This document shows, one piece after another, positions 1,692 through 37,833 of a DNA stretch of 64,000 nt (the stretch's first letter is position 1; every line of letters begins with the position of its first letter). A model generated the notes under the pieces. That model searched no databases and was not told where the DNA came from. It saw only the letters and a program-made list of their open reading frames with translations. The stretch is from Rosa chinensis (taxonomy: Eukaryota; Streptophyta; Magnoliopsida; Rosales; Rosaceae). Position numbers and translations under genes: made by a program. Location of the stretch: NCBI RefSeq assembly GCF_002994745.2, contig NC_037090.1, positions 15,426,001-15,490,000 of the forward strand, read 5' to 3'.

Positions 1692-1744
1692 AGCCAAGTA
1701 CCTTTTGCTGATACAGAGCCGCAGTGGCTACTACGAGAGCTCTA

Positions 1745-5775: not shown

Positions 5776-5834
<59 letters not shown>

Positions 5835-15502: not shown

Positions 15503-16029
15503 TGTTAGGGGCCGCACTTGTAATGCCGCAAGCAACCTTGTCCAGGGTCATTAGTCAAGCCCTTGGTTGGTTTGCTTGTGTGCTAGGGTTGTTTTGGTAA
15601 TTTACAAATTATGTAATTTATTTTATTTAGGCTTTAGTCTCCTCAGCCTTTTCCATGTTTCCTACTGCCAAGTTCATGTAAGCCCGATATGCTCTTTAGG
15701 GAGGGGTTCCTAGTCGACATAGTTTGGACTACGGAACTAGTATAGGTAAGCACATGTACTTTTGCCTCCCTTGACGTCTTACCATCAATAAAAGAGGAAT
15801 TATTCAATCATCTGTGTCTCGTGAGATTGCCCTTTGATCTTTCCTTTCGATTAATCATTGTTCTTCGTGGTTGCCCAATGTTTATATAATTGTGTTCTTG
15901 CTTGTTGCTAGCACTATTTTAATATCGGGTGGATTTCATTGTTCCTTGCAAGGTACTCACTTGGCTGGCTTGCTTACTAGCAAGTGCCGCACGGTCCGCT
16001 TTGCGCATTGCAAAGTTTGGCCCGTGACA
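15503..16029 (+). repeat. 5' LTR of the gypsy element
   Basis: Starts TGTTAGGGGCC and ends CCCGTGACA, directly before the primer-binding site. Differs from the 3' LTR by an A/G change (TAGTCGACATAG against TAGTCGGCATAG) and a T/C change (CCCAATGTTT against CCCAACGTTT). Confidence 0.95.
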
Positions 16030-16031
16030 GT

Positions 16032-16044
16032 TGGTATCAGAGCC
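16032..16044 (+). other. Primer-binding site (initiator-Met tRNA)
   Basis: TGGTATCAGAGCC, two bases after the LTR end, is complementary to the 3' end of plant initiator-Met tRNA, the usual primer of this retrotransposon group. Confidence 0.9.
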
Positions 16045-16069
16045 AACTCGGCTCAAGAAGCTTACTACG

Positions 16070-19000
16070 ATGACAAGCAGGATGACAAACCAACAAAGAT
16101 TCGATTGGTATGACCAGCAACTCGGAGAACTTGCGGGGGTGCCCGACAGATTGATTGATGTCACTAACATGTTGGACCGCGTCGACCTAGATGGGTTGGC
16201 GGCGCGGATGACAGAGGTGGAGAGCCTGAAGGACCGAGTTGTGGCCCTTGAAAAAAGTAAAGCTCGAGGTGAGGGAATGGAGAGAAATGAGGAAGAAACC
16301 TCCATTCCGAACGAGCAAATGGGGGCGATGAGTGATGCCCTTGACACACTCCAGGTGACGGTGGATAATATGGCAGAAGATGTCCGAGTCACCATTAACG
16401 CATTCAGGAACGAGTTGGTGGAGATGAATACCAAGCTCAACCTGACCATCCGTGCGATGGGAAACCAACCTGTGACGGACTACAGGAAGGTAAAGATACC
16501 TGAACCTCAAGCCTTCGGAGGGGCGCGTGATGCCAAGGAGCTTGAGAATTACTTATTTGATATGGAGCAATACTTCCGAGCAGTGAAGCCAGACTCGGAA
16601 GAGGTGAAGGTGAACATGGCAACAATGTATTTGTCGGGAGATGCGAAACTATGGTGGAGAACCAAGTATAATGACATCCAAAGGGGAGTATGCACCATCG
16701 ACACTTGGGAGGATCTTAAGAAGGAGCTCAAAGCTCAGTTTTTCCCCGAGAATGTCGAATACATTGCCAGACGGCAACTAAGGGAACTCAAGCACACCAA
16801 CAACATTCGAGACTTTGTGAACAAGTTCTCTGTGCTCATGCTTGACATCCCAGACATGTCAGAGAAGGATCGGTTGTTCTACTTCCTTGAAGGCTTAAAG
16901 CCATGGGCGAGGACAGAACTTCAGCGACAAAGGGTCCAAGATTTGGCCTCCGCACAGGCTGCTGCTGAAAGGTTGACAGACTACACATTCGAAGAGAACT
17001 CCACTAAGAGGACTCAGCCCTTTTCCAATGCAAATGTCAACAGAAATACAAGACCTGGACCGAGTAGAAGTGGGGGAGCGGAGTCCAAATTTTCCAACTC
17101 AGGAGGAGGGGACAGGAGAGTAACGAATGCGAGGGACACCGCAACGTCCAAGCCTGCGACCTCAACAGGGGTCTTCACCCCTCGACCCTTTAATCCCGCA
17201 GGCTATGCTCCAAGGCCACTAGTATGCATCTTATGCAGAGGACCTCATAGAGTGAATGAATGCCCTCACAAGACCGCCCTCTCTGCCCTACAGGCTCATA
17301 TTCAATTGAAAGAAACAGAAGATCAGCAAGAGCCAGAGGAGGAACCTAGTCACATGGGAGCTTTGAGATTCTTGGGTGCACTAGAGAAGCGACCACAATT
17401 TCCTGAGAAGTCCCAAGCTAAAGGCTTGATGTTCATAGATGATAGTATTAATGGGAAAAGTGCTAAGAGAGTGATGGTGGACACAGGGGCCACTCACAAC
17501 TTTGTGTCAGAAACTGAAGCACAGAGGTTGGGGCTGAAATTGGAGAAGGATGTAGGCCGTATGAAAGCTGTGAACTCTAAGGCCTCACCCACAGCCGGAC
17601 TATCTCGAGGAGTGTCACTCAAGTTAGGTCACTGGCAAGGGAAGACCGACCTTATAGTTGTTCAGATGGATGACTTCGATGTCATACTGGGGATGGAATT
17701 CTTACTGGCGAACAAAGCTATTCCCATTCCCAGTGCCCAAAACTTGCTTATTATGGGAGAAAGGCCGTGTGTGGTTCCAGCAAGAATTAAACAACCAAGT
17801 GAACCCCGTCTCTTGTCTGCCCTCCAGTTCAAGAAAGGGGTGAAGCGTCAGGAGCCTACCTATGTAGCAGTTCCCCTGATAAAGGATGAAACTAAAGGAG
17901 AAGTGATTCCAAAGGAGATAGAGGGGGTATTGGAGAGCTATGGAGATGTGATGCCCCCTGAACTTCCCAAAGAATTACCTCCAAGGAGGAGTGTGGACCA
18001 CGAGATTGAATTGCTTCCAGGGGCCAAACCACCTGCGAAGGCACCTTACAGAATGGCTCCCCCAGAGTTGGCAGAACTTCGAAAACAGCTCGAAGACCTA
18101 CTCAAGGCAGGATTCATTAGGCCATCTAAAGCCCCATTTGGTGCGCCTGTACTGTTTCAAAAGAAGCAAGATGGAAGTTGGAGATTGTGTGTGGACTATC
18201 GAGCTCTCAACAAGGTAACGGTACGCAACAAGTACCCGATTCCTCTTATTGCAGATCTATTTGACCAACTTAGTGGTGCCAAGTATTTCACAAAGTTAGA
18301 CCTCCGCTCGGGGTACTATCAAGTTCGCATCGCGGAAGGCGATGAACCCAAGACAACTTGTGTCACCCGTTATGGCGCTTTTGAATTCCTGGTGATGCCG
18401 TTCGGGTTGACCAACGCACCAGCTACATTCTGCACCTTGATGAACCAAGTCTTCCACGAATACTTAGACAAGTTTGTGGTAGTCTATCTAGATGACATTG
18501 TGGTGTATAGCTCTACCATGGATGAACACGTAGAGCACTTGAAACTGGTGTTCCAACGGTTGCGGGACAATCAGCTGTATGTCAAGCGCGAGAAGTGCTC
18601 CTTCGCACAAGTGACCATCAAGTTTCTAGGTCACGTTATTGAAAGGGGTAAAATCAGGATGGATATGGAGAAAGTAAAAGCCATAAGGGAGTGGCGAAAC
18701 CCCAAGAATGTGAAAGAACTACGTTCTTTTCTTGGGCTGGCTAATTACTATCGGCATTTCATCAAGAACTACTCAAAGAAGACAACCCCCTTAACTGAAC
18801 TCTTGAAGAAGGGAGTGGCGTGGGACTGGAGTAGTGATTGTGAGAAGACCTTTCAAGATTTGAAGAAGGCCGTAATGGAAGATCCAGTCCTCGCCTTACC
18901 CGACCTGAACCAACCGTTCGAAGTACAGACGGACGCTTCTGACTTTGCCTTAGGAGGAGTCTTGCTACAACAGGGGCACCCTATTGCGTATGAAAGTCAT

Positions 19001-19186
19001 AAACTCTCGGAAGCTGAAAGGAAGTACACGGCTCAAGAGAAAGAGTTGCTGGCCGTAATCCACTGTTTGAGGACATGGCGACACTATTTGTTGGGGTCAA
19101 AGTTCCTTGTGAAGACAGACAATTCTGCCGTCAGCCACTTCCTGACCCAACCAAAGTTAACTCCAAAGCAAGCTCGATGGCAAGAG
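16070..19186 (+). CDS. Gypsy gag-pol polyprotein, N-terminal part (gag, protease, RT, start of RNase H)
   Basis: The frame starts at the ATG at 16070, 41 bases after the LTR. In order it shows a gag domain ([31 protein letters not shown]), a CX2CX3HX4C zinc knuckle ([13 protein letters not shown], near 17224), an aspartic protease with VDTGATHNF (near 17479), reverse transcriptase with YLDD (near 18485) and RNase H with [10 protein letters not shown] (near 18928). It is open throughout. It is cut at 19186 by the target duplication TTTCT of the nested array; the apparent stop at 19211 lies in foreign LTR sequence. The other half resumes at 37834 in the same frame. Confidence 0.95.
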
Positions 19187-20023
19187 TTTCTTGATAGGAG
19201 CATTTTAATGTGATATTTTAATAGTTAATTCCTCACATTTTGCTTAGTTAATTCCTTAACTGAATCGATTTTAATTCAATTTCTATTTTTAGGTACATTG
19301 GAGTAAATGAAGGTGAAATGAGCGTTAGGTCCATAATTACCTAGAAATGATGGAGAAGAATGAAAATGCACTAAAAAGTCAACCTTGAATATTTTCTTAC
19401 TCCGGCTAGGAGAATCAGAGCCAAGCAAGGAAGAAGGAGCGGCCGCCTGACCAAATGAACTTCAAATGAGCTGAAACCTTCCAGATCCATTCTAGACACC
19501 CAAAGGATCATTTCTTATGAAGAGTGCCAGAGAAAAATATGAGTGGAAGGCCTTCAAACAATCAGCCCAATTTTCTATAGAAGCAAAACCGGAAAACTGG
19601 ACCTGTAAGAGGTCCAGCAGCATTTCCGGCCCAACCACATGGATTGAAGCTCTGAAAATTTGTCAGGATGATCTACACTCATAGTGGAACATTTCATATG
19701 AAGAAGTCAAAGGCATATAATGAAGTCTTGTTGGAGAAATAATTGAAGGAATAAAGGGGAAGAAACTGACCTGAAAACAGCTCAACACCACATATTCATG
19801 TTTCCCACCCACATGAAGAAAGCTAGATGCTTTTCTCTTTTTCCTTGGATATATTTTTTCTACAATCTCTTTAATAGATCATCATCACTTCCATGTTGCT
19901 GCACCTTCATGCTTTGCTTTCATTTCATCATTTCTCTTTCTTTTCCATATTTTACAAATCACTTTCATACTCCACTTTCATTATTTTTCTTCCACTCATC
20001 ATTTCACTCTTCTTTTTCTTCCC

Positions 20024-20030
20024 TATATAA
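20024..20030 (+). promoter_or_regulatory. TATA box of LTR 1
   Basis: TATATAA in the setting CTTCCCTATATAAACACC, at the U3/R side of the LTR about 830 bp from its start. The same sequence is kept in the other three LTRs. Confidence 0.7.
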
Positions 20031-20055
20031 ACACCTTCTCCTCTCATTCTATAAC

Positions 20056-20224
20056 AAATTCCTTCATCCATCTCATCTTCTTTGTCTCTCCATTTCCTTT
20101 CCATTTTCCCAAAAATTCCTTCATCCATCTCATCTTCTTTGTCTCTCCATTTCCTTTCCATTTTCCCAAAAATTCCTTCATCCATTCCATCTTCTTTGTC
20201 TCACCATTTCCTTTCCATTTTCCT
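20056..20224. repeat. Three tandem copies of a 57-58-bp pyrimidine-rich unit in the LTR leader
   Basis: Each copy reads like ATTCCTTCATCCATCT, then a CTTCTTTGTCTC block and CCATTTCCTTTCCATTTTCC. The third copy is slightly diverged. They lie just downstream of the TATA box, so they would be in the transcript leader. Equivalent triplets occur in LTRs 2, 3 and 4. Confidence 0.9.
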
Positions 20225-21362
20225 TCTCCATTCTCTAGTTGCAAAGTTCTGCGTTTTCAAGCAAGGAGAGGAAGAAGAAAAAGGAGCCGTGAAGATCATA
20301 TCCTCCATCATCCACCTTGAAGGCTTGCTTCCAAGATTCAAGATCCAACCATCTAGCTCTCCATCTCCATCTCCCCTCACGGTGTAATTCATTCTTTTTC
20401 CTTGTAATGATCTTTTGTTTTCCTTGTTTGAATTCATATGAACTTGTTTCTAGTTAACAATAATGTTTAGGGTAAAGTTTAAACCCAACTTCTATGTTTA
20501 AATAAAGAATTTCGATTCTTATGTTGTGATTCCAAAGTTGCTTATGTGTGATTGTTCGATTGAATTTGCTTGATAGAAAACTTTTATATGTTTATCTTAT
20601 TTGGGTCGACACTTATAAGATTTGCATGTAATTGGTGCTAGGTTTAAGAACATGAAATCGACTTTTCGTTTTGTGTAAACTTGAATCAAAGTAATAAAGG
20701 TTTTGGACAAAAATCGAATTCAATTGAAGAGGATTGCAATTAGGTGAACTTATTCATACTAAGTTGTACACTTGAGTTGATAGCCTTTCTCTATGTGTAA
20801 TGCGTTAAACATGACATGATTGACTAGCTTTCTAGGGTTTGATTGCATGTTTAATAGGATTAATCTAGGTGCTTTCGCTTAGATTAATTAGCATTGAAAA
20901 GTAAAATATGGGAAATCGTTTGCTTTCGAATGTTTCACATGATCAACTCCATTCACATGACTTGGAAGAACAATGTAGGGTTAATTCGAATTCAATGATA
21001 AACTTGGGTTTAATCTTTGTTTCTTATGTTTCATTCTTGTACATGTGTTTTTATATTTTCTTTATCTTAATTTTCAATTCTATAATTCTTAAACCCCCCT
21101 CCCTTTTTATTTTGTTACTTGTATATATTTCTATTCTTTACTTTATTTTGTAAATAATACTTTATTATTTTAATTCTTTATTTGTTTATACAATTGTATA
21201 TATTTATTCTTTATTTTATTTCTGTAAATAATACTTTTCTTTATTTGTTTCACAATTACAAGTGTACCCTCAATCCCCGGATAGAACGATCCCTATTTGC
21301 TTATACTACTAACGATATTTTCAGGGTTAAATTGCGCGCTTCCCAAAAGCGGCATCAATTTT

Positions 21363-21380
21363 TGGCGCCGTTGCCGGGGA
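21363..21380 (+). other. Primer-binding site (tRNA-Asp) of internal region 1
   Basis: TGGCGCCGTTGCCGGGGA is complementary to the 3' end of plant tRNA-Asp. It starts five bases after the LTR end. Copies stand at 28578-28594, where one G is missing, and at 33204-33221. Confidence 0.9.
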
Positions 21381-22486
21381 ATGAAAAATCACTTGTTAAA
21401 TTGTGTCATTTATTGTATATATTTGTTGTATATAAATTGTTTAAAACTTAGTTTTAAATATTATTTATATTATTGAACATGAATTTTAATTGTAGGTTGT
21501 AAATTGAGAGGAATATGTGAAGTCTCTTTTGTTAATATTGGCCTAAACCCCTTATTGGTACCTAGCTCAGGTCCCTTAAGGTTGAGGGCGGCCTTTATTA
21601 ACACTTGTTGAACTGTCTTCACACTTATGAACTTTTTCATCTTAGTAAGCATAGCCTATGTGGAATGGTGTCTAGGAAGGGGACAACGTTCATGACGGGT
21701 TTTTGAATCCAGAAGTGCTTGCAAATGGGCCTAAACCACTATGTGGGAGTAGCTCATGCCAAAATGGATTTTTCCTCTTGTGTTCGTCCTCCCCCACCTG
21801 GCCATTTCAGTAAGGTTGCCCAAAAGATTTGAAAGGGAGTTTGTGTCTAGGCGACTATACTTGGGCCGCACGTCCACTTGATTTACCGCTTGAAATTTGA
21901 TTCGATATCAATAATGTTTATAATAAAAGAAATACTTGTGAATACTCTATACGTGTAAATTATTTTGTTGTTTCACACTTTAATACTTGTAAAAATACTT
22001 TTCACGTTTTATACTCACTTGTACTTAACTTGTGTCTTTTGTACAATATACTTGTTAATTTTACTTGTAGTTTGTAATTAATAGTTATACTTGTTTTTAT
22101 TTTGTATTTCTTTGTTAATTATAGTTACTAACTTTATTTAATGTAGGTACCGTCTGGCTGTAAGACGTAAAATACAAGCGCTACTTGGGAGGCAACCCAT
22201 GCAAATCAGATTTGCTTTCTTTATCCTTATATTTTATTTTTCGTTTTTGCTTATTTGTTTTAGTTTTTATTTTCGTAAATTTCATCCCTATATGCTTACT
22301 TATTTCATTGCATGCTTTTAATTGATTACATTGAAGATAATGCAATATTTAAGTGTGGGGGAAGGGATTTATATTTTTGTCTTTCATTTTAAGTCCTATA
22401 TATATCTTTGTCTTTTATTTTTGAATCCTATGTATTAAAAAAAAAAAACTGCATTCATTCAGTCTTATTAAATTCAGCTATTTACA

Positions 22487-22489
22487 AAA

Positions 22490-22529
<40 letters not shown>
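22487..22529. repeat. (AAT)n microsatellite next to the homeobox gene
   Basis: About 14 AAT units, just beyond the 3' end of the antisense homeobox gene. Confidence 0.9.
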
Positions 22530-22533
<4 letters not shown>

Positions 22534-22542
22534 TACTCTATA

Positions 22543-23154
22543 CTAAGCCATGTCTGCATCTCCGTAGGAGTTGAGGCTGAGCTCAAGGGAAATGCGAGAG
22601 CCACCGCCATAGCCGCTACCTCCCTCGGAAGTAGTCTTCATGTTGCCCAAGATGTCCTCACCATGCATGGGGAATAGTGGAAGGGTTTCAATCTCCTGGT
22701 GATATTCTCCTCGTTGTTCCATGATCGATCCATCAGCACTATAGCCGACACGTGACCCAAAATTTAGATCAATGGATCTGTCAGTACTAGTAGAACTAGT
22801 GGATCCAAAATTGAGATCGAGAGATCCACCAACCGGAACGTTCCGAAATTCCTTCAACTTCTGCCTCTCACGAGCCTTGAGGTTCTGGAACCAAAAGAAG
22901 ACGTTTTTGTCCTCGATCTGCCCATACTGTTTCAGATGGAGGCAGATCTCTTGAATCTGCTCTGGAGTTGGGTACTTAAAACCCTTATCATAGTAAAGGC
23001 CCTTGAGGATTCTTAGTTGAGGCGGTGTGGGAGCCCACCGGTTACTACTCCCGGCTGCTTGGATGCTTCCTCCCTCCTCGGTTGGTTACTGGGCTTGTAA
23101 TTCCATTTGTTGCTGGGTTTGTAACTCCATTAGTTGCAGAGTTCGTGGTTCCAT
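22543..23154 (-). pseudogene. WUSCHEL-type homeobox gene carried by the retrotransposon, one nonsense codon
   Basis: Lying antisense to the element, this 203-codon frame encodes a WOX-type homeodomain at about residues 39-101 ([48 protein letters not shown]). Near residue 157 it has a WUS box (TLPLFPMH), and near residue 190 an EAR-like repression motif (LELSLN) at the C-terminus. These three motifs together define WUS, the stem-cell transcription factor. The N-terminus from the ATG at 23154 has an in-frame TAA at codon 23 (23086-23088); the remaining 180 codons are open. No intron interrupts it. A duplicated DLNFGS motif precedes the WUS box. Changes such as NVFYWFQNH to NVFFWFQNL show divergence from canonical WUS. 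It may be a pseudogene or restart downstream. Confidence 0.85.
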
Positions 23155-23264
23155 GTTGATGAAGAAAAGATTTGAGTTTCGAAAGAAAGGCTGAAGGGTT
23201 GAGAAAGAAAGGCTGGAACTCGGAAGAATTTTCTTTTGGAGTGAACAGTCGCTCAGAATGCACC

Positions 23265-23272
23265 TATTTATA
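23265..23272 (-). promoter_or_regulatory. Possible TATA box of the homeobox gene
   Basis: TATAAATA on the minus strand, about 110 bp upstream of the ATG at 23154. If used, it would mean that the gene came with its own promoter rather than as a bare cDNA. Confidence 0.5.
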
Positions 23273-23377
23273 GAACGAGTGAGCAGATCTCCACCGTTGG
23301 ATCGACGATCTCTGAGATTAAATCTACGCGTTGGATTAAAGTCACCCGAAAACACGGAAAAGCTGTTGGCTCGTGAA

Positions 23378-23680
23378 GGACACGTGGGGGAACCAAACTG
23401 ATCTCGAGGAGCTGTGACAGATAAGCTACAGCCGAAAGCAGGTTTAATTGCCGTGAATCAAGGAAAAGAAAGGACGCGTGGGGGAATCAAACGAATCTCG
23501 AGGATCCGTGACAGACAAGCTATAGCCGAAAGCATGCCATAAATCCAGGAAAAGAAAGGACGCGTGGGGGAATCAAACGAATCTCGAGGATCCGTGACAG
23601 ACAAGCTATAGCCGAAAGCATGCCATAAATCCAGGAAAAGAAAGGAATATTTACACGTGGGGGAGTTTCTTGGGCCGAGA
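23378..23680. repeat. 86-bp tandem repeats upstream of the homeobox gene
   Basis: Two copies identical by eye lie at 23472-23557 and 23558-23643. A diverged 94-bp copy precedes them (from 23378) and a partial one follows (from 23644). Each begins near a CACGTGGGGG or CGCGTGGGGG box; the CACGTG forms are G-box cores. Position and content suggest an upstream regulatory repeat. Confidence 0.85.
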
Positions 23681-23842
23681 ACTATCATAACTCTTCTCCT
23701 TCCCGGAGAAGCTTTGTTAAAACCGTGTGCCTGTTGAGATTTCTACCCTATTTTGTGCTTTACATATACATCCTTTTTTGTCTCCTCCAGATTTTACTAA
23801 GGTTTGTCTAAGCGTGCAGTTTCAAATTCCTTCTACTTCCTC

Positions 23843-24373
23843 ATGGCTCGAACCAAGGTTACCCCTCGCAGGGGCGTCAATCAATGCCGTGTTCTCTCTT
23901 TGGAAGAAGAAGGTCATCAAGCGGCCACTAGAGCTGGGCTTACTCGTCCATGGGACCATCGTCCTATCCGTGAGCGTACCTGCAGTCCCCCTCCTCTGCC
24001 TCGTCGCTCTCCCAGACTGCATCCCGGAGAGTCTTCTTCCTCACCAGCTGCTCGTGCTCCTCGCCCTATGGCCACCCTGGAAAGCTTGTCGGATTCGATT
24101 GATGATTTGCGTTCCTCTCTCCGCGATGGTATCATGGTGACAGATTGGAGAGTCAATTGCATGATCGATTACATCTCTGAGATGAACTGCTCTTTGATCC
24201 GCTGTCACACTGCAATAAACAAGCTTGCTCAGGAAGTCAATAACTTGCAGAGTTATCCTCCTGGGTTTCCTCGCAAGGACACTACTGCATCACACCATGA
24301 GAACCCTCCTCAGGAAGCTGAAACCAGCAAGAGGGCTGCCACTCTCCCGCATACCGCTCCTCCAAAGGAGTAA
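23843..24373 (+). CDS. Small ORF of the retrotransposon, unknown function (MARTK ORF)
   Basis: A 176-residue frame starting MARTKVTPRRGVNQ. The N-terminal half is rich in Arg, Pro and Ser (PPPLPRRSPRLHPGESSSS). The middle is a possibly helical segment (LESLSDSIDDLRSSLRDG, MIDYISEMNCSLIRCHTAIN) and the tail is hydrophilic. I do not recognise a domain; it has no zinc knuckle or protease motif. The basic start could suit a nucleic-acid-binding or gag-like role, which is speculation. The 3' half survives in internal regions 2 and 3 as an 89-codon frame. Confidence 0.5.
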   Translation: MARTKVTPRRGVNQCRVLSLEEEGHQAATRAGLTRPWDHRPIRERTCSPPPLPRRSPRLHPGESSSSPAARAPRPMATLESLSDSIDDLRSSLRDGIMVTDWRVNCMIDYISEMNCSLIRCHTAINKLAQEVNNLQSYPPGFPRKDTTASHHENPPQEAETSKRAATLPHTAPPKE

Positions 24374-24844
24374 ATGGAGGTACAAGTCTAGGCTGAGAGA
24401 CTTTAAACATTAAGCGCTGCATGGGAGGCAACCCATTTCAACCGTATCTGTGGAGGAGCCATCAAACGCAGATTTGCTTTCTTGAACTCTTCCTTCTATT
24501 TTATTTTCATGAATTTTAAGTTGTTTTAGGTTTCGTTGTGTTAACTTTCTCTTCTATGCTTGATTTATGCTTTGCATGATTTATATTTGTTTGTACATTG
24601 AGGACACTGCATGAATTAAGTATGGGAGAAGTGTTATTGCTTTATTGTGTGTTTAGTAGTTAGTATATAAAAAAAAATGAAAAATAGTTGATGTTGGATT
24701 GTGTTTTTATTGTGTTTTTAGTTGATGTTGTGATACACTAAGGTATATTGGATTAAACATAGTCTTGAAAAAGGGTAGCTGTTTCAGTCCCATTGCACAT
24801 CAAGACTCCCTGTTCCCGTACCTAAGTGTTGAAATTAAATTAAA

Positions 24845-24883
<39 letters not shown>

Positions 24884-26391
24884 TTGGTTTTAGAGTGTTT
24901 TTGTTTGTGTGTTTGAGTCTTAGGATGCTCCTAACGTCTAGGATGAACATGTCTCCGAATTCATGGCTGAAGGTTTTCACAATAGAAATAGGACTTAATT
25001 GAATTCTGTGGTTAATCGACATTGTGATGCTTGTATGAAGATTTGAGATAAGATTGTAACTTGGTTCATTAAGCATGCTAGGATTAAGTCTGATTCATTT
25101 GACCCAAGTGAGCTGTTGAGCTAAAATACTTTCTTTTCGAGTGCTTATTGATAAATTCAGAATTTCATGGCTGTATTTGCAAAACCTCATCATTCTTTTG
25201 AAAATCCAATGATCATGTGCCATAGATTTTAATGGACTAGAGAGTACTAGAACTCGGCTGTTGTGACTGTCAAAACTTGTATGCCATAATATGCACTGAT
25301 CCTGGATAGGATAGAAGGCATTAGGGTAACCACCATAGCCAAACAAGCATGTATCCCCAATTGTGCCCGTCGTGGGACTCCTTAGAATGAACCCCTTTGA
25401 GCCTACGTTGAAAACCTTTGTTTCATCACCCTCACTACCCTACCATGAGCTTAGTACAGGATATCTCTACCCTTGTCTTAAGGACTTAGTAGAGCATGAC
25501 ATAGTATGTAGGGGTGACGATGAAAGACAAGTATGGGGTGGGAAAAATCCAAGAAAAAAAAAATTTTGCCTTGAAAAAAAGAAAAAAAGAAAGAAAAGCG
25601 GCAAAAGAGAAGAAAAATTGAAAAGAAAACTCTTGGGAAAATGTTGAAGTGTGGTTTTGGACTTGCAAATGTGTAGAAGGCTCAAAGTTGAAAATTATGC
25701 CTTTGTCCATTCCCATGTTGGTTAGAGTGAAGGTTTGGCCCAAAACAATTATATTTGGTCTACAAAAATGATGACATAAGGTGGTCCTTATATGCTCTGC
25801 TAGGTCCTTAGGATTTTTTTGTATCCTTAATCTTCATTTCGAAAACCCTAGCTTAGCCCTATTACAACCTGTTTTAAGTGCTGACTTGATCCTTGAGATG
25901 GGCAGTCTTTGGTTAGTGGAGTCAGTTACGCAGTCGAGCTTATGGTTTAGGTCCATTTGTGCACTTAGTCATTTCATGAGGTCTTTAAAAATTCTTCACA
26001 AAATGTGTTTATTGATGAAATATGCAAGCTGTTTGTTGCCTTACAATTTGTTCTCTTGCATATACTTGAGTGTGAAGCTTTTAAGCATAGCCATTTCTGA
26101 GAGAAAAATCGAGAGTATGCCCTGTAAGTTTGGATTGGACTTGTTCGAAACATGCTATCATTCACTGTATAACTTAAGTTCTCCATATCTTGCTTAGTCA
26201 TATGAATGTCACAGGTTTATTAACCATGGAATTATCTTTGTGATTTTGATTAAGTGTTTAACGTGAAAGCCATGAGTTTGGAGTCTCTGAGACAACAGTT
26301 AGGAGCAATAGAGTCATTTACTTGCCTTTTGTCAAGTCTTTGTTCTGTTTTGGATTTTTTTTGTTTTGTTTTGCTAAGGGACTAGCAAAAG

Positions 26392-26408
26392 CTAAGTGTG
26401 GGGGAATT
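26392..26408 (+). other. Polypurine tract before LTR 2
   Basis: TAAGTGTGGGGGAATT directly before the TGATAGG start of LTR 2, the expected plus-strand priming site. The same sequence precedes LTR 3 (ending 31034) and LTR 4 (ending 35667). Confidence 0.8.
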
Positions 26409-28572
26409 TGATAGGAGCATTTTAATGTGATATTTTAATAGTTAATTCCTCACATTTTGCTTAGTTAATTCCTTAACTGAATCGATTTTAATTCAATTTC
26501 TATTTTTAGGTACATTGGAGTAAATGAAGGTGAAATGAGCGTTAGGTCCATAATTACCTAGAAATGATGGAGAAGAATGAAAATGCACTAAAAAGTCAAC
26601 CTTGAATATTTTCTTACTCCGGCTAGGAGAATCAGAGCCAAGCAAGGAAGAAGGAGCGGCCGCCTGACCAAATGAACTTCAAATGAGCTGAAACCTTCCA
26701 GATCCATTCTAGACACCCAAAGGATCATTTCTTATGAAGAGTGCCAGAGAAAAATATGAGTGGAAGGCCTTCAAACAATCAGCCCAATTTTCTATAGAAG
26801 CAAAACCGGAAAACTGGACCTGTAAGAGGTCCAGCAGCATTTCCGGCCCAACCACATGGATTGAAGCTCTGAAAATTTGTCAGGATGATCTACACTCATA
26901 GTGGAACATTTCATATGAAGAAGTCAAAGGCATATAATGAAGTCTTGTTGGAGAAATAATTGAAGGAATAAAGGGGAAGAAACTGACCTGAAAACAGCTC
27001 AACACCACATATTCATGTTTCCCACCCACATGAAGAAAGCTAGATGCTTTTCTCTTTTTCCTTGGATATATTTTTTCTACAATCTCTTTAATAGATCATC
27101 ATCACTTCCATGTTGCTGCACCTTCATGCTTTGCTTTCATTTCATCATTTCTCTTTCTTTTCCATATTTTACAAATCACTTTCATACTCCACTTTCATTA
27201 TTTTTCTTCCACTCATCATTTCACTCTTCTTTTTCTTCCCTATATAAACACCTTCTCCTCTCATTCTAAAACAAATTCCTTCATCCATCTCATCTTCTTT
27301 GTCTCTCCATTTCCTTTCCATTTTCCCAAAATTCCTTCATCCATCTCATCTTCTTTGTCTCTCCATTTCCTTTCCATTTTCCCAAAATTCCTTCATCCAT
27401 TCCATCTTCTTTATCTCACCATTTCCTTTCCATTTTCCTTCTCCATTCTCTAGTTGCAAAGTTCTGCGTTTTCAAGCAAGGAGAGGAAGAAGAAAAAGGA
27501 GCCGTGAAGATCATATCCTCCATCATCCACCTTGAAGGCTTGCTTCCAAGATTCAAGATCCAACCATCTAGCTCTCCATCTCCATCTCCCCTCACGGTGT
27601 AATTCATTCTTTTTCCTTGTAATGATCTTTTGTTTTCCTTGTTTGAATTCATATGAACTTGTTTCTAGTTAACAATAATGTTTAGGGTAAAGTTTAAACC
27701 CAACTTCTATGTTTAAATAAAGAATTTCGATTCTTATGTTGTGATTCCAAAGTTGCTTATGTGTGATTGTTCGATTGAATTTGCTTGATAGAAAACTTTT
27801 ATATGTTTATCTTATTTGGGTCGACACTTATAAGATTTGCATGTAATTGGTGCTAGGTTTAAGAACATGAAATCGACTTTTCGTTTTGTGTAAACTTGAA
27901 TCAAAGTAATAAAGGTTTTGGACAAAAATCGAATTCAATTGAAGAGGATTGCAATTAGGTGAACTTATTCATACTAAGTTGTACACTTGAGTTGATAGCC
28001 TTTCTCTATGTGTAATGCGTTAAACATGACATGATTGACTAGCTTTCTAGGGTTTGATTGCATGTTTAATAGGATTAATCTAGGTGCTTTCGCTTAGATT
28101 AATTAGCATTGAAAAGTAAAATATGGGAAATCGTTTGCTTTCGAATGTTTCACATGATCAACTCCATTCACATGACTTGGAAGAACAATGTAGGGTTAAT
28201 TCGAATTCAATGATAAACTTGGGTTTAATCTTTGTTTCTTATGTTTCATTCTTGTACATGTGTTTTTATATTTTCTTTATCTTAATTTTCAATTCTATAA
28301 TTCTTAAACCCCCTCCCTTTTTATTTTGTTACTTGTATATATTTCTATTCTTTACTTTATTTTTGTAAATAATACTTTATTATTTTAATTCTTTATTTGT
28401 TTATACAATTGTATATATTTATTCTTTATTTTATTTCTGTAAATAATACTTTTCTTTATTTGTTTCACAATTACAAGTGTACCCTCAATCCCCGGATAGA
28501 ACGATCCCTATTTGCTTATACTACTAACGATATTTTCAGGGTTAAATTGCGCGCTTCCCAAAAGCGGCATCA
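26409..28572 (+). repeat. LTR 2 of the array
   Basis: 2164 bp, TGATAGG start and GGCATCA end. It acts as the 3' LTR of the long unit and as the 5' LTR of the first short unit. Shares the C5 tract near 28310 with LTR 3, whereas LTRs 1 and 4 have C6. Confidence 0.95.
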
Positions 28573-29477
28573 ATTTTTGGCGCCGTTGCCGGGAATGAAA
28601 ATCACTTGTTAAATTGTGTCATTTATTGTATATATTTGTTGTATATAATTGTTTAAACTTAGTTTTAAATATTATTTATATTATTGAACATGAATTTAAA
28701 TATTATTTATATTATTGAACATGAATTTCGATTCTTATGTTGCGTTCCTCTCTCCGCGATGGTATCATGGTGACAGATTGGAGAGTCAATTGCATGATCG
28801 ATTACATCTCTGAGATGAACTGCTCTTTGATCCGCTGTCACACTGCAATAAACAAGCTTGCTCAGGAAGTCAATAACTTGCAGAGTTATCCTCCTGGGTT
28901 TCCTCGCAAGGACACTACTGCATCACACCATGAGAACCCTCCTCAGGAAGCTGAAACCAGCAAGAGGGCTGCCACTCGCCCGCATACCGCTCCTCCAAAG
29001 GAGTAAATGGAGGTACAAGTCTAGGCTGAGAGACTTTAAACATTAAGCGCTGCATGGGAGGCAACCCATTTCAACCGTATCTGTGGAGGAGCCATCAAAC
29101 GCAGATTTGCTTTCTTGAACTCTTCCTTCTATTTTATTTTCATGAATTTTAAGTTGTTTTAGGTTTCGTTGTGTTAACTTTCTCTTCTATGCTTGATTTA
29201 TGCTTTGCATGATTTATATTTGTTTGTACATTGAGGACACTGCATGAATTAAGTATGGGAGAAGTGTTATTGCTTTATTGTGTGTTTAGTAGTTAGTATA
29301 TAAAAAAAAATGAAAAATAGTTGATGTTGGATTGTGTTTTTATTGTGTTTTTAGTTGATGTTGTGATACACTAAGGTATATTGGATTAAACATAGTCTTG
29401 AAAAAGGGTAGCTGTTTCAGTCCCATTGCACATCAAGACTCCCTGTTCCCGTACCTAAGTGTTGAAATTAAATTAAA

Positions 29478-29508
<31 letters not shown>

Positions 29509-31034
29509 TTGTTGGTTTTAGAGTGTTTTTGTTTGTGTGTTTGAGTCTTAGGATGCTCCTAACGTCTAGGATGAACATGTCTCCGAATTCATGGCTGAAG
29601 GTTTTCACAATAGAAATAGGACTTAATTGAATTCTGTGGTTAATCGACATTGTGATGCTTGTATGAAGATTTGAGATAAGATTGTAACTTGGTTCATTAA
29701 GCATGCTAGGATTAAGTCTGATTCATTTGACCCAAGTGAGCTGTTGAGCTAAAATACTTTCTTTTCGAGTGCTTATTGATAAATTCAGAATTTCATGGCT
29801 GTATTTGCAAAACCTCATCATTCTTTTGAAATCCAATGATCATGTGCCATAGATTTTAATGGACTAGAGAGTACTAGAACTCGGCTGTTGTGACTGTCAA
29901 AACTTGTATGCCATAATATGCACTGATCCTGGATAGGATAGAAGGCATTAGGGTAACCACCATAGCCAAACAAGCATGTATCCCCAATTGTGCCCGTCGT
30001 GGGACTCCTTAGAATGAACCCCTTTGAGCCTACGTTGAAAACCTTTGTTTCATCACCCTCACTACCCTACCATGAGCTTAGTACAGGATATCTCTACCCT
30101 TGTCTTAAGGACTTAGTAGAGCATGACATAGTATGTAGGGGTGACGATGAAAGACAAGTATGGGGTGGGAAAAATCCAAGAAAAAAAAAATTTTGCCTTG
30201 AAAAAAAGAAAAAAAGAAAGAAAAGCGGCAAAAGAGAAGAAAAATTGAAAAGAAAACTCTTGGGAAAATGTTGAAGTGTGGTTTTGGACTTGCAAATGTG
30301 TAGAAGGCTCAAAGTTGAAAATTATGCCTTTGTCCATTCCCATGTTGGTTAGAGTGAAGGTTTGGCCCAAAACAATTATATTTGGTCTACAAAAATGATG
30401 ACATAAGGTGGTCCTTATATGCTCTGCTAGGTCCTTAGGATTTTTTGTATCCTTAATCTTCATTTCGAAAACCCTAGCTTAGCCCTATTACAACCTGTTT
30501 TAAGTGCTGACTTGATCCTTGAGATGGGCAGTCTTTGGTTAGTGGAGTCAGTTACGCAGTCGAGCTTATGGTTTAGGTCCATTTGTGCACTTAGTCATTT
30601 CATGAGGTCTTTAAAAATTCTTCACAAAATGTGTTTATTGATGAAATATGCAAGCTGTTTGTTGCCTTACAATTTGTTCTCTTGCATATACTTGAGTGTG
30701 AAGCTTTTAAGCATAGCCATTTCTGAGAGAAAAATCGAGAGTATGCCCTGTAAGTTTGGATTGGACTTGTTCGAAACATGCTATCATTCACTGTATAACT
30801 TAAGTTCTCCATATCTTGCTTAGTCATATGAATGTCACAGGTTTATTAACCATGGAATTATCTTTGTGATTTTGATTAAGTGTTTAACGTGAAAGCCATG
30901 AGTTTGGAGTCTCTGAGACAACAGTTAGGAGCAATAGAGTCATTTACTTGCCTTTTGTCAAGTCTTTGTTCTGTTTTGGATTTTTTTTGTTTTGTTTTGC
31001 TAAGGGACTAGCAAAAGCTAAGTGTGGGGGAATT
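28573..31034 (+). mobile_element. Short internal region 2 (deleted form)
   Basis: About 2.46 kb. After the primer site and roughly 110 bases, a 31-bp AT-rich block is duplicated (28662-28730). Then GAATTTCGATTCTTATGTTG, a stretch found in the LTR, leads straight into the 3' part of the MARTK ORF. The homeobox gene, the 86-bp repeats and the ORF start are absent. The rest is colinear with region 1. Confidence 0.92.
28737..29006 (+). pseudogene. Truncated MARTK ORF, copy 2
   Basis: 89 codons beginning MLRSSLRDG. The ATG comes from the LTR-derived filler at the deletion junction, and from LRSSLRDG on the frame equals residues about 89-176 of the full ORF with one Leu-to-Arg change. Whether it is translated is unknown. 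Confidence 0.5.
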
Positions 31035-33198
31035 TGATAGGAGCATTTTAATGTGATATTTTAATAGTTAATTCCTCACATTTTGCTTAGTTAATTCCTT
31101 AACTGAATCGATTTTAATTCAATTTCTATTTTTAGGTACATTGGAGTAAATGAAGGTGAAATGAGCGTTAGGTCCATAATTACCTAGAAATGATGGAGAA
31201 GAATGAAAATGCACTAAAAAGTCAACCTTGAATATTTTCTTACTCCGGCTAGGAGAATCAGAGCCAAGCAAGGAAGAAGGAGCGGCCGCCTGACCAAATG
31301 AACTTCAAATGAGCTGAAACCTTCCAGATCCATTCTAGACACCCAAAGGATCATTTCTTATGAAGAGTGCCAGAGAAAAATATGAGTGGAAGGCCTTCAA
31401 ACAATCAGCCCAATTTTCTATAGAAGCAAAACCGGAAAACTGGACCTGTAAGAGGTCCAGCAGCATTTCCGGCCCAACCACATGGATTGAAGCTCTAAAA
31501 ATTTGTCAGGATGATCTACACTCATAGTGGAACATTTCATATGAAGAAGTCAAAGGCATATAATGAAGTCTTGTTGGAGAAATAATTGAAGGAATAAAGG
31601 GGAAGAAACTGACCTGAAAACAGCTCAACACCACATATTCATGTTTCCCACCCACATGAAGAAAGCTAGATGCTTTTCTCTTTTCCTTGGATATATTTTT
31701 CTACAATCTCTTTAATAGATCATCATCACTTCCATGTTGCTGCACCTTCATGCTTTGCTTTCATTTCATCATTTCTCTTTCTTTTCCATATTTTACAAAT
31801 CACTTTCATACTCCACTTTCATTATTTTTCTTCCACTCATCATTTCACTCTTCTTTTTCTTCCCTATATAAACACCTTCTCCTCTCATTCTAAAACAAAT
31901 TCCTTCATCCATCTCATCTTCTTTGTCTCTCCATTTCCTTTCCATTTTCCCAAAAATTCCTTCATCCATCTCATCTTCTTTGTCTCTCCATTTCCTTTCC
32001 ATTTTCCCAAAAATTCCTTCATCCATTCCATCTTCTTTATCTCACCATTTCCTTTCCATTTTCCTTCTCCATTCTCTAGTTGCAAAGTTCTGCGTTTTCA
32101 AGCAAGGAGAGGAAGAAGAAAAAGGAGCCGTGAAGATCATATCCTCCATCATCCACCTTGAAGGCTTGCTTCCAAGATTCAAGATCCAACCATCTAGCTC
32201 TCCATCTCCATCTCCCCTCACGGTGTAATTCATTCTTTTTCCTTGTAATGATCTTTTGTTTTCCTTGTTTGAATTCATATGAACTTGTTTCTAGTTAACA
32301 ATAATGTTTAGGGTAAAGTTTAAACCCAACTTCTATGTTTAAATAAAGAATTTCGATTCTTATGTTGTGATTCCAAAGTTGCTTATGTGTGATTGTTCGA
32401 TTGAATTTGCTTGATAGAAAACTTTTATATGTTTATCTTATTTGGGTCGACACTTATAAGATTTGCATGTAATTGGTGCTAGGTTTAAGAACATGAAATC
32501 GACTTTTCGTTTTGTGTAAACTTGAATCAAAGTAATAAAGGTTTTGGACAAAAATCGAATTCAATTGAAGAGGATTGCAATTAGGTGAACTTATTCATAC
32601 TAAGTTGTACACTTGAGTTGATAGCCTTTCTCTATGTGTAATGCGTTAAACATGACATGATTGACTAGCTTTCTAGGGTTTGATTGCATGTTTAATAGGA
32701 TTAATCTAGGTGCTTTCGCTTAGATTAATTAGCATTGAAAAGTAAAATATGGGAAATCGTTTGCTTTCGAATGTTTCACATGATCAACTCCATTCACATG
32801 ACTTGGAAGAACAATGTAGGGTTAATTCGAATTCAATGATAAACTTGGGTTTAATCTTTGTTTCTTATGTTTCATTCTTGTACATGTGTTTTTATATTTT
32901 CTTTATCTTAATTTTCAATTCTATAATTCTTAAACCCCCTCCCTTTTTATTTTGTTACTTGTATATATTTCTATTCTTTACTTTATTTTTGTAAATAATA
33001 CTTTATTATTTTAATTCTTTATTTGTTTATACAATTGTATATATTTATTCTTTATTTTATTTCTGTAAATAATACTTTTCTTTATTTGTTTCACAATTAC
33101 AAGTGTACCCTCAATCCCCGGATAGAACGATCCCTATTTGCTTATACTACTAACGATATTTTCAGGGTTAAATTGCGCGCTTCCCAAAAGCGGCATCA
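31035..33198 (+). repeat. LTR 3 of the array
   Basis: 2164 bp, same boundaries as the others. It has a private G-to-A change near 31497 and two shortened T tracts near 31682 and 31699. Confidence 0.95.
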
Positions 33199-34108
33199 AT
33201 TTTTGGCGCCGTTGCCGGGGAATGAAAAATCACTTGTTAAATTGTGTCATTTATTGTATATATTTGTTGTATATAAATTGTTTAAAACTTAGTTTTAAAT
33301 ATTATTTATATTATTGAACATGAATTTAAATATTATTTATATTATTGAACATGAATTTCGATTCTTATGTTGCGTTCCTCTCTCCGCGATGGTATCATGG
33401 TGACAGATTGGAGAGTCAATTGCATGATCGATTACATCTCTGAGATGAACTGCTCTTTGATCCGCTGTCACACTGCAATAAACAAGCTTGCTCAGGAAGT
33501 CAATAACTTGCAGAGTTATCCTCCTGGGTTTCCTCGCAAGGACACTACTGCATCACACCATGAGAACCCTCCTCAGGAAGCTGAAACCAGCAAGAGGGCT
33601 GCCACTCGCCCGCATACCGCTCCTCCAAAGGAGTAAATGGAGGTACAAGTCTAGGCTGAGAGACTTTAAACATTAAGCGCTGCATGGGAGGCAACCCATT
33701 TCAACCGTATCTGTGGAGGAGCCATCAAACGCAGATTTGCTTTCTTGAACTCTTCCTTCTATTTTATTTTCATGAATTTTAAGTTGTTTTAGGTTTCGTT
33801 GTGTTAACTTTCTCTTCTATGCTTGATTTATGCTTTGCATGATTTATATTTGTTTGTACATTGAGGACACTGCATGAATTAAGTATGGGAGAAGTGTTAT
33901 TGCTTTATTGTGTGTTTAGTAGTTAGTATATAAAAAAAAAATGAAAAATAGTTGATGTTGGATTGTGTTTTTATTGTGTTTTTAGTTGATGTTGTGATAC
34001 ACTAAGGTATATTGGATTAAACATAGTCTTGAAAAAGGGTAGCTGTTTCAGTCCCATTGCACATCAAGACTCCCTGTTCCCGTACCTAAGTGTTGAAATT
34101 AAATTAAA

Positions 34109-34139
<31 letters not shown>

Positions 34140-35667
34140 TTGTTGGTTTTAGAGTGTTTTTGTTTGTGTGTTTGAGTCTTAGGATGCTCCTAACGTCTAG
34201 GATGAACATGTCTCCGAATTCATGGCTGAAGGTTTTCACAATAGAAATAGGACTTAATTGAATTCTGTGGTTAATCGACATTGTGATGCTTGTATGAAGA
34301 TTTGAGATAAGATTGTAACTTGGTTCATTAAGCATGCTAGGATTAAGTCTGATTCATTTGACCCAAGTGAGCTGTTGAGCTAAAATACTTTCTTTTCGAG
34401 TGCTTATTGATAAATTCAGAATTTCATGGCTGTATTTGCAAAACCTCATCATTCTTTTGAAAATCCAATGATCATGTGCCATAGATTTTAATGGACTAGA
34501 GAGTACTAGAACTCGGCTGTTGTGACTGTCAAAACTTGTATGCCATAATATGCACTGATCCTGGATAGGATAGAAGGCATTAGGGTAACCACCATAGCCA
34601 AACAAGCATGTATCCCCAATTGTGCCCGTCGTGGGACTCCTTAGAATGAACCCCTTTGAGCCTACGTTGAAAACCTTTGTTTCATCACCCTCACTACCCT
34701 ACCATGAGCTTAGTACAGGATATCTCTACCCTTGTCTTAAGGACTTAGTAGAGCATGACATAGTATGTAGGGGTGACGATGAAAGACAAGTATGGGGTGG
34801 GAAAAATCCAAGAAAAAAAAAATTTTGCCTTGAAAAAAAGAAAAAAAGAAAGAAAAGCGGCAAAAGAGAAGAAAAATTGAAAAGAAAACTCTTGGGAAAA
34901 TGTTGAAGTGTGGTTTTGGACTTGCAAATGTGTAGAAGGCTCAAAGTTGAAAATTATGCCTTTGTCCATTCCCATGTTGGTTAGAGTGAAGGTTTGGCCC
35001 AAAACAATTATATTTGGTCTACAAAAATGATGACATAAGGTGGTCCTTATATGCTCTGCTAGGTCCTTAGGATTTTTTTGTATCCTTAATCTTCATTTCG
35101 AAAACCCTAGCTTAGCCCTATTACAACCTGTTTTAAGTGCTGACTTGATCCTTGAGATGGGCAGTCTTTGGTTAGTGGAGTCAGTTACGCAGTCGAGCTT
35201 ATGGTTTAGGTCCATTTGTGCACTTAGTCATTTCATGAGGTCTTTAAAAATTCTTCACAAAATGTGTTTATTGATGAAATATGCAAGCTGTTTGTTGCCT
35301 TACAATTTGTTCTCTTGCATATACTTGAGTGTGAAGCTTTTAAGCATAGCCATTTCTGAGAGAAAAATCGAGAGTATGCCCTGTAAGTTTGGATTGGACT
35401 TGTTCGAAACATGCTATCATTCACTGTATAACTTAAGTTCTCCATATCTTGCTTAGTCATATGAATGTCACAGGTTTATTAACCATGGAATTATCTTTGT
35501 GATTTTGATTAAGTGTTTAACGTGAAAGCCATGAGTTTGGAGTCTCTGAGACAACAGTTAGGAGCAATAGAGTCATTTACTTGCCTTTTGTCAAGTCTTT
35601 GTTCTGTTTTGGATTTTTTTTGTTTTGTTTTGCTAAGGGACTAGCAAAAGCTAAGTGTGGGGGAATT
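33199..35667 (+). mobile_element. Short internal region 3 (deleted form)
   Basis: About 2.47 kb with the same deletion, 31-bp duplication and LTR filler as region 2, so both descend from one event. Differences are mainly in homopolymer lengths. Confidence 0.92.
33367..33636 (+). pseudogene. Truncated MARTK ORF, copy 3
   Basis: 89 codons, identical in translation to the copy in region 2, again with its ATG inside the LTR-derived filler. Confidence 0.5.
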
Positions 35668-37833
35668 TGATAGGAGCATTTTAATGTGATATTTTAATAG
35701 TTAATTCCTCACATTTTGCTTAGTTAATTCCTTAACTGAATCGATTTTAATTCAATTTCTATTTTTAGGTACATTGGAGTAAATGAAGGTGAAATGAGCG
35801 TTAGGTCCATAATTACCTAGAAATGATGGAGAAGAATGAAAATGCACTAAAAAGTCAACCTTGAATATTTTCTTACTCCGGCTAGGAGAATCAGAGCCAA
35901 GCAAGGAAGAAGGAGCGGCCGCCTGACCAAATGAACTTCAAATGAGCTGAAACCTTCCAGATCCATTCTAGACACCCAAAGGATCATTTCTTATGAAGAG
36001 TGCCAGAGAAAAATATGAGTGGAAGGCCTTCAAACAATCAGCCCAATTTTCTATAGAAGCAAAACCGGAAAACTGGACCTGTAAGAGGTCCAGCAGCATT
36101 TCCGGCCCAACCACATGGATTGAAGCTCTGAAAATTTGTCAGGATGATCTACACTCATAGTGGAACATTTCATATGAAGAAGTCAAAGGCATATAATGAA
36201 GTCTTGTTGGAGAAATAATTGAAGGAATAAAGGGGAAGAAACTGACCTGAAAACAGCTCAACACCACATATTCATGTTTCCCACCCACATGAAGAAAGCT
36301 AGATGCTTTTCTCTTTTTCCTTGGATATATTTTTTCTACAATCTCTTTAATAGATCATCATCACTTCCATGTTGCTGCACCTTCATGCTTTGCTTTCATT
36401 TCATCATTTCTCTTTCTTTTCCATATTTTACAAATCACTTTCATACTCCACTTTCATTATTTTTCTTCCACTCATCATTTCACTCTTCTTTTTCTTCCCT
36501 ATATAAACACCTTCTCCTCTCATTCTAAAACAAATTCCTTCATCCATCTCATCTTCTTTGTCTCTCCATTTCCTTTCCATTTTCCCAAAAATTCCTTCAT
36601 CCATCTCATCTTCTTTGTCTCTCCATTTCCTTTCCATTTTCCCAAAAATTCCTTCATCCATTCCATCTTCTTTATCTCACCATTTCCTTTCCATTTTCCT
36701 TCTCCATTCTCTAGTTGCAAAGTTCTGCGTTTTCAAGCAAGGAGAGGAAGAAGAAAAAGGAGCCGTGAAGATCATATCCTCCATCATCCACCTTGAAGGC
36801 TTGCTTCCAAGATTCAAGATCCAACCATCTAGCTCTCCATCTCCATCTCCCCTCACGGTGTAATTCATTCTTTTTCCTTGTAATGATCTTTTGTTTTCCT
36901 TGTTTGAATTCATATGAACTTGTTTCTAGTTAACAATAATGTTTAGGGTAAAGTTTAAACCCAACTTCTATGTTTAAATAAAGAATTTCGATTCTTATGT
37001 TGTGATTCCAAAGTTGCTTATGTGTGATTGTTCGATTGAATTTGCTTGATAGAAAACTTTTATATGTTTATCTTATTTGGGTCGACACTTATAAGATTTG
37101 CATGTAATTGGTGCTAGGTTTAAGAACATGAAATCGACTTTTCGTTTTGTGTAAACTTGAATCAAAGTAATAAAGGTTTTGGACAAAAATCGAATTCAAT
37201 TGAAGAGGATTGCAATTAGGTGAACTTATTCATACTAAGTTGTACACTTGAGTTGATAGCCTTTCTCTATGTGTAATGCGTTAAACATGACATGATTGAC
37301 TAGCTTTCTAGGGTTTGATTGCATGTTTAATAGGATTAATCTAGGTGCTTTCGCTTAGATTAATTAGCATTGAAAAGTAAAATATGGGAAATCGTTTGCT
37401 TTCGAATGTTTCACATGATCAACTCCATTCACATGACTTGGAAGAACAATGTAGGGTTAATTCGAATTCAATGATAAACTTGGGTTTAATCTTTGTTTCT
37501 TATGTTTCATTCTTGTACATGTGTTTTTATATTTTCTTTATCTTAATTTTCAATTCTATAATTCTTAAACCCCCCTCCCTTTTTATTTTGTTACTTGTAT
37601 ATATTTCTATTCTTTACTTTATTTTTGTAAATAATACTTTATTATTTTAATTCTTTATTTGTTTATACAATTGTATATATTTATTCTTTATTTTATTTCT
37701 GTAAATAATACTTTTCTTTATTTGTTTCACAATTACAAGTGTACCCTCAATCCCCGGATAGAACGATCCCTATTTGCTTATACTACTAACGATATTTTCA
37801 GGGTTAAATTGCGCGCTCGCTTACAGCGCATCA
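35668..37833 (+). repeat. LTR 4 of the array, with a variant 3' end
   Basis: 2166 bp. Up to TTAAATTGCGCGCT it follows the other LTRs, but the last 16 bases read CGCTTACAGCGCATCA where LTRs 1-3 have TCCCAAAAGCGGCATCA. The target duplication TTTCT follows at once, so this is the true outer end of the array. Confidence 0.93.

Follow-up and report, generated by a model that had tools for sequence, protein, structure and literature searches.

An antisense WUSCHEL-type gene as cargo of LTR retrotransposons in Rosa chinensis

Extra genes in plant LTR retrotransposons

Among the closest described systems are elements with additional ORFs (aORFs), namely maize Grande (with gene23), rice RIRE2 and Silene Retand, which carry an extra gene in antisense orientation and occur in many copies (PMC7264820). 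For Grande, a promoter upstream of the aORF has been demonstrated and the protein is nuclear. Their aORFs are situated between pol and the 3′ LTR, and no host donor is known for them. For most antisense aORFs the same source gives the origin as unknown, and it describes transduced genes as usually sense and present in one or few copies. Host gene sequence within an LTR element is also found in maize Bs1 and tomato Rider/SUN (PMC13317346); in the accessible text of that source the terms homeobox, antisense and Rosa occur 0 times. A further survey, which relied on reverse transcriptase as its marker and would therefore miss elements without pol, sought extra domains in Gypsy elements of 121 angiosperm genomes (PMC9289625, as far as its accessible text goes). 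It reports the Plant Mobile Domain (PMD), a LONELY GUY-type YgdH domain in Citrus, B3 in Aegilops and a demethylase in orchids, and its accessible main text contains homeobox 0 times.

The rose element described here likewise carries an antisense extra gene in many copies. It differs from Grande, RIRE2 and Retand in that the gene, of WUSCHEL-related homeobox (WOX) type, lies near the 5′ LTR of an element without a pol-sized frame, and in that the donor of the cargo is a known host gene. Bs1 and Rider/SUN resemble it as carriers of host gene sequence, whereas the rose cargo is antisense, present in hundreds of copies and constrained in its homeodomain. With the Gypsy domains it has in common that host-type domains are fixed in element families, B3 being a transcription-factor DNA-binding domain and YgdH a cytokinin-pathway domain. 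It can be stated with high confidence that the rose WUSCHEL gene (RcWUS), in spliced form, is the antisense cargo of three LTR element families, designated A, B and C, that family C holds some 450-500 copies with a TATA-type upstream region, and that the homeodomain of element-borne copies has been under purifying selection at the protein level. No paper tying rose WOX genes to retrotransposons was found in the literature searched, outside which lay most subscription journals and bioRxiv.

The element in the window and its WUS-type frame

The window is the whole stretch of 64,000 nucleotides analysed (NC_037090.1, positions 15,426,001 to 15,490,000). Its relevant features are the following.

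15503..39980, plus strand: host Ty3/gypsy element (chromovirus) with a chromodomain; LTRs at 15503-16029 and 39454-39980, 99.6% identical; pol broken by the nested insert
19192..21357, plus strand: LTR 1, 2166 bp, start TGATAGGAGC, end GGCATCA
21363..21380, plus strand: PBS-like stretch TGGCGCCGTTGCCGGGGA just after LTR 1, a PBS by position
22543..23154, minus strand: WUSCHEL-type homeobox frame, 203 codons and a stop; ATG at 23154-23152, TAG at 22545-22543, in-frame TAA as codon 23 (23088-23086)
22861..23043, minus strand: homeodomain, Pfam match to residues 15-75 of the frame portion after the TAA, coordinates computed from the match
23155..23440, minus strand: WOX upstream region with TATA box CTATAAATAG at 23264-23273; promoter-core pattern with 504 genome matches, control 0
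23355..23620, no strand assigned: three 86-bp repeat copies, 23355-23440 at 71%, 23449-23534 as reference, 23535-23620 at 97%
23840..24373, plus strand: sense-strand ORF, 176 residues counted from an ATG read from the sequence, plus stop, the stop included in the 3′ end; 455 genome pattern matches
26409..28572, plus strand: LTR 2, with purine-rich GTGGGGGAA directly before it
28573..31034, plus strand: shortened internal region without WOX
31035..33198, plus strand: LTR 3
33199..35667, plus strand: shortened internal region without WOX
35668..37833, plus strand: LTR 4; target site duplication (TSD) TTTCT at 19187-19191 and 37834-37838

The insert from 19192 to 37833 thus reads LTR, WOX-bearing internal region (5051 bp, between LTR 1 and LTR 2), LTR, shortened internal region, LTR, shortened internal region and LTR, with the 5-bp TSD on both sides, and 1.2 kb separate the 5′ LTR from the WOX gene. 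Paired LTRs with TG..CA ends and the target duplication are those of an LTR retrotransposon, and the PBS-like stretch and the purine tract stand at the places usual for such an element. An initial annotation of this DNA had placed a WUSCHEL-like gene antisense inside an LTR retrotransposon; these features bear out the placement, whereas the insert is larger than had been stated and comprises four LTRs, which differ pairwise by 1 to 7 bases, gaps aside. The WOX-bearing internal region (21358-26408) holds no frame longer than 190 aa, hence no gag-pol of its own, and Pfam gives no match for the 176-residue sense ORF. Judged by the lack of a pol-sized frame, the element is filed as non-autonomous.

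Each of the two shortened internal regions between 28573 and 35667 lacks about 2.6 kb including the WOX gene, and their tandem arrangement is probably due to unequal recombination in which one element had the WOX gene and the other did not. The nested insert splits the pol of the outer chromovirus between the RNase H and integrase matches. The outer element is bordered by a CATAG duplication on both sides, which together with the 99.6% LTR identity points to a recent insertion that preceded the entry of the nested element. A wall-associated-kinase-type gene (3691-8727, plus strand) and an auxin-response-factor-type gene (57971-60688, minus strand) flank the nested retrotransposons.

The WUS-type frame consists of an N-terminal part, the WOX homeodomain, a Gly/Ser-rich middle with two DLNFG motifs, the WUS box TLPLFPMH and LELSLN near the C-terminus. 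The Pfam homeodomain match has E=6.2e-11, above the curated cut-off, and the closest solved structure is 6ry3, the WUSCHEL homeodomain (E=4e-22). The protein search returned 270 homologues at E<=0.001 with a best E=7.9e-116, which places the frame far above chance; the top-ranking proteins belong to Rosa chinensis. The order of TLPLFPMH and LELSLN is that in the WUS proteins of Fragaria, Argentina and Prunus. Homeodomain, WUS box and EAR-like motif, all noticed on the opposite strand in the initial annotation, assign the frame to the WUS-clade WOX type.

It had also been proposed that the TAA at codon 23 disables the frame or that translation begins later. No in-frame Met is present between this TAA and the homeodomain, and the first Met after it, within SIMEQRG, lies 3′ of the homeodomain. 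A later ATG start preserving the homeodomain is thereby ruled out, and translation of the window copy from an ATG should not yield its DNA-binding part. As read from its frame, the copy is a broken casualty from which the codon-23 TAA would remove the homeodomain.

Upstream of the frame, the TATAAA starts 118 nt before the WOX ATG, in agreement with the TATA-like box described earlier. CACGTG occurs at 23381, in the diverged 71% repeat, and at 23654, just outside the repeats, whereas the two near-identical 86-bp repeats have ACGCGT at the corresponding site; the G-boxes earlier ascribed to the repeats are thus confined to the diverged copy. Two CACGTG sites in the promoter region compare with a shuffle mean of 0.03. 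In the leader, TGAATGAA occurs once, a count reached in 5 of 200 shuffles. Autoregulation of the LTR via WUS-type motifs was considered and dropped, because the WUS-binding motifs scanned for are not enriched in the LTR.

Copies in the rose genome, element families and the donor gene

Whole-genome pattern searches gave 504 matches for the WOX promoter core (<=2 mismatches), 455 for the sense ORF (<=3 mismatches) and 450 for the WUS box (<=3 mismatches), with 0 matches for each reversed control. These counts put the copy number of family C in this genome at roughly 450-500. Pairing was followed at 95 sense-ORF places among the matches listed, on contigs C1 and C2. An exact WUS box is present within 2.5 kb at 76 of them, at a spacing of 1289-1528 nt and on the strand opposite to the sense ORF in all 76; the exact promoter core is present within 2 kb at 69 of the 95. 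In most copies (76/95 listed places) the WOX frame is thus antisense to its element, as in the aORF elements. At the remaining 19 of the 95 listed places no exact WUS box lies as close as 2.5 kb, which together with the shortened internal regions of the window indicates that the WOX gene is dispensable in cis. A one-off independent insertion of WUS into one element is rejected, as there are several hundred pattern matches with the same place and orientation where paired. The suggestion that an intronless antisense WUS gene travels with a promoter-like region as cargo of a mobile LTR element is in this way extended to several hundred copies. The contrary outcome, a homeobox frame found only here within a target duplication of its own, did not occur.

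Twenty stretches around genome homeodomain matches comprise one donor (L009), six of family C (L018, L019, L022, L023, L024, L027), ten of family A (L011-L017, L020, L021, L026) and three of family B (L010, L025, L028). The six family C stretches show LTR, leader, antisense WOX, promoter region and sense ORF ordered as in the window. A 5-bp TSD, whose reading needs both ends, is present in L018, L022, L027 and the window; the 3′ LTR end of L019 was not located, and the ends of L023 and L024 fall beyond the stretch. In plant LTR dating, a rate of 1.3e-8 substitutions per site and year, from rice, is in use. With this rate, the LTR distances of 0.001-0.003 in the window, L018 and L022 correspond to ages of some 0.05-0.13 million years. 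LTR comparisons that were partial or imperfect give 0.0018 for L023, 0.0065 for L024 and 0.0087 for L019, and the L027 pair, in a gapped alignment, has a K2P distance of 0.056.

It has been reported that R. chinensis contains 381 WOX genes, 364 of them in rose-only clades, while R. multiflora contains 170 and a further Rosa species 105 (Duan et al. 2024, PMC11405225). Among the rose WOX clades I-V named there, clade V has motifs in agreement with the window frame. The accessible text of that paper treats the rose-only WOX genes as ordinary genes and leaves the expansion unexplained, and the stem 'transpos' occurs 0 times in its accessible main text. Section 4.1 suggests that host WOX genes were duplicated segmentally or with the whole genome, and also gives 0 collinear genes within rose. 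For the element-borne copies this proposal is contradicted and has next to no probability, as the examined copies are intronless, reside in LTR elements and, at all 76 paired places, run opposite to the element ORF. Amplification by LTR elements accounts both for the count of 381 and for the missing collinearity. The published puzzle of the rose 'WOX genes' is thereby resolved, and rose gene counts need rereading; work directed at RcWUS through primers, expression counts or edits may also affect hundreds of copies in the elements.

RcWUS (L009, C2:11711808-11713110) contains two introns, 86 and 335 nt long and both with GT-AG ends, has a conceptual protein of 299 residues, and is the sole locus with separated WUS exons among the loci fetched. 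The initial annotation had called for a test of intron loss. As family C lacks the linker region in which the introns are sited, it cannot show the loss by itself, and the test rests on L049, a near-full-length copy in a related element type with three in-frame TAGs. Over 1027 aligned nt, L049 is 95.1% identical to the joined RcWUS exons, with one gapped base, across both junctions. Absence of both introns at this identity identifies the cargo as a retro-processed copy; L026, too, lacks both introns, and a short deletion is present at its first junction. L049, L050 and L052 have family A flanks on both sides, and L026, L049 and L050 have similar 5′ junctions. On these alignments RcWUS is the donor of the element-borne gene.

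In L049, L026 and the copies of families B and C, similarity to RcWUS breaks off about 20 nt short of the RcWUS stop codon, and in the other family A copies some 75 nt earlier. No poly(A) tail of the captured mRNA is seen at these ends, since the match stops before the stop codon. A spliced WUS mRNA would have been captured during replication of the element, and the antisense orientation of the copy would place the template switch in plus-strand synthesis. From about 575 to 217 nt upstream of its ATG, RcWUS itself contains an insert of about 356 bp with 16-bp direct repeats (ACCTCTCTGTCAACTT), a T-run at its start and a SINE-like look. This insert is absent from L049 and L050 and was therefore probably acquired after the capture.

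It had been supposed that the WUS promoter moved together with the coding part. This does not apply to the family of the window, whose TATA region resembles L026, L010 and L028 and is unlike the RcWUS 5′ region, so that the family C promoter probably belongs to the element itself. In family A (e.g. L011), by contrast, sequence as far as about 144 nt before the ATG also matches RcWUS.

The WOX gene is found in two LTR element types (A, B) besides family C. The PBS region reads TGGCGCCGTTGCCGGGGA in family C and, next to a different LTR, TGGTATCAGAGC in B (L028); in A (L012), the sequence after the LTR starts with TTTTGGCACACCCAGTGGGAC. Comparison of L010 (B) with the window by blastn shows the WOX gene and its upstream region in common and little else, whereas families A and C have LTR and leader pieces in common. 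It may be inferred that the gene was exchanged among LTR element types. The similar 5′ junctions of L026, L049 and L050 stand against a far larger difference between A and C in the homeodomain (dS 1.19) than outside it (dS 0.35), a pattern suggestive of exchange or of a second source. The tree of WOX homeodomains has poor resolution, the long repeats of L010 do not fit the PBS position, and no long LTR pair was found in the L025 stretch. L066 combines a promoter and C-terminus of family C type with a homeodomain like that of P0020 and 19 homeodomain singletons, a mosaic that suggests exchange between lineages.

Stretches of family A also contain a PMD frame (PF10536) on the same strand as WOX, at 7589-9076 (minus strand) of L013 with E=5e-23. 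In L014, PMD frames at 638-1660 and 1606-2424 (plus strand) give E=8.1e-19 and a weak 0.0005. The long frame of L012 has no Pfam match.

Selection on the copies and possible roles of the cargo

A first homeodomain omega of 0.16 for family C was discarded as evidence for selection, since similarity in homeodomain score had been the criterion for choosing those copies. It was replaced by a sample picked with the 287-nt promoter region, blind to the homeodomain, of the 40 best-scoring among 515 first-look candidates. These are 99-100% identical in the promoter region and all young. The frame is open through LELSLN in 34 of the 40, L034 and L046 being read to three codons before the end, and the WUS box is present in all 34 of this set, which was pre-selected for LELSLN. 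Broken frames are those of the window, L055, L073, L074, L075 and L082; for L073, L074 and L082, alignment to an open relative is poor or has long gaps. The omega set comprises 34 sequences, namely 33 open copies and the window with its stop codon skipped; the five other broken copies were left out, as was L066, because of its 19 homeodomain singletons and P0020-like homeodomain.

In the homeodomain, 7 of 158 nonsynonymous and 12 of 48 synonymous sites vary (omega about 0.18), against 49 of 282 and 23 of 96 outside it (omega 0.73). The homeodomain deficit concerns nonsynonymous variants (p=7.8e-5) and not synonymous ones (p=0.61). Bootstrapping over copies gives an omega of 0.07-0.28 for the homeodomain and 0.58-0.85 outside, the homeodomain being lower in 200 of 200 replicates. 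With L066 retained (35 sequences), the homeodomain has 20 nonsynonymous and 18 synonymous variants and an omega of about 0.34. Among homeodomain singletons, 6 are nonsynonymous and 9 synonymous (p=0.0026), although singletons in a sample of 40 from several hundred copies are not necessarily terminal changes. For comparison, the short sense ORF has an omega of about 0.69 (six copies, one frameshifted near the end). The depletion of amino-acid variants in the homeodomain indicates selection on the element-borne copies at the protein level; with a young, best-scoring sample and constrained singletons, this selection is not placeable on particular branches. The many stop codons and dN/dS near 1 that had been named as contrary evidence did not appear, omega in the homeodomain being well below 1.

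Whether the element makes use of the WUS-type protein is an evenly balanced question. A rather unlikely answer is that the WUS copy is a passive hitch-hiker, useless to the element and amplified through the success of the latter alone. This would agree with the near-absent expression in the published rooting series, where 359 of the 364 rose-only WOX genes are almost silent (PMC11405225), as well as with the WOX-less derivatives in the window itself, the omega of 0.73 outside the homeodomain and the 6 broken frames among 40 young copies. It does not predict that nonsynonymous variants are depleted in the homeodomain and synonymous ones are not. The deep split of family C from RcWUS, with a homeodomain dS of 1.29 and omega of 0.16 in copies picked partly by homeodomain score, also speaks against it.

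The same rooting series shows five rose-only WOX genes above 10 counts in three or more stages (PMC11405225), as would be expected if some copies served as host WOX genes and the family were kept similar by gene conversion. This host use is highly improbable, given that the copies lie in nested, LTR-bounded elements and that conversion should reduce synonymous and nonsynonymous variants alike, whereas the synonymous ones in the homeodomain are not depleted.

Antisense RNA or dsRNA could instead be the main product, tuning the element or silencing RcWUS, with the protein secondary. For aORFs, transcription in antisense and possible roles as dsRNA have been described (PMC7264820). In the transcript region of the window, 33 of 740 21-mers occur in RcWUS exons, the longest exact match being 40 nt, which would allow small-RNA silencing of RcWUS. 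Such a role is nevertheless unlikely: the copies of family B are nearly without RcWUS 21-mers (L028 1, L010 0, L025 1), and a depletion of nonsynonymous variants only is not predicted by it. A combined role of protein and dsRNA is possible.

If the protein is used, the WOX gene would be transcribed from its own antisense promoter, and a WUS-type protein made at some stage would act on the host, its DNA binding aiding the persistence of the element. The plant shoot apex supplies the germ line. A WUS-type factor could keep shoot-apex cells stem-like, and the likeliest benefit, put forward tentatively, would be a stem-like permissive state in shoot meristem cells that are a later source of germ cells. 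By analogy with oncogene-carrying retroviruses, the WUS-type gene may, on a doubtful reading, be an accessory gene of the element whose product holds or turns host cells stem-like in the germ-forming lineage and so favors higher transmission, with the DLNF motifs as an adaptation to this. The rose cargo provides a case of an antisense accessory gene in a plant LTR retrotransposon whose host source is known, and the use of meristem regulators by elements for reaching the germ line becomes a testable question. Among the 34 open copies, DLNF motifs number two in 28, one in 3 and three in 3; the conceptual RcWUS protein is devoid of them and has SHNFG at this place, and the motifs are possibly gained ones of repressor type.
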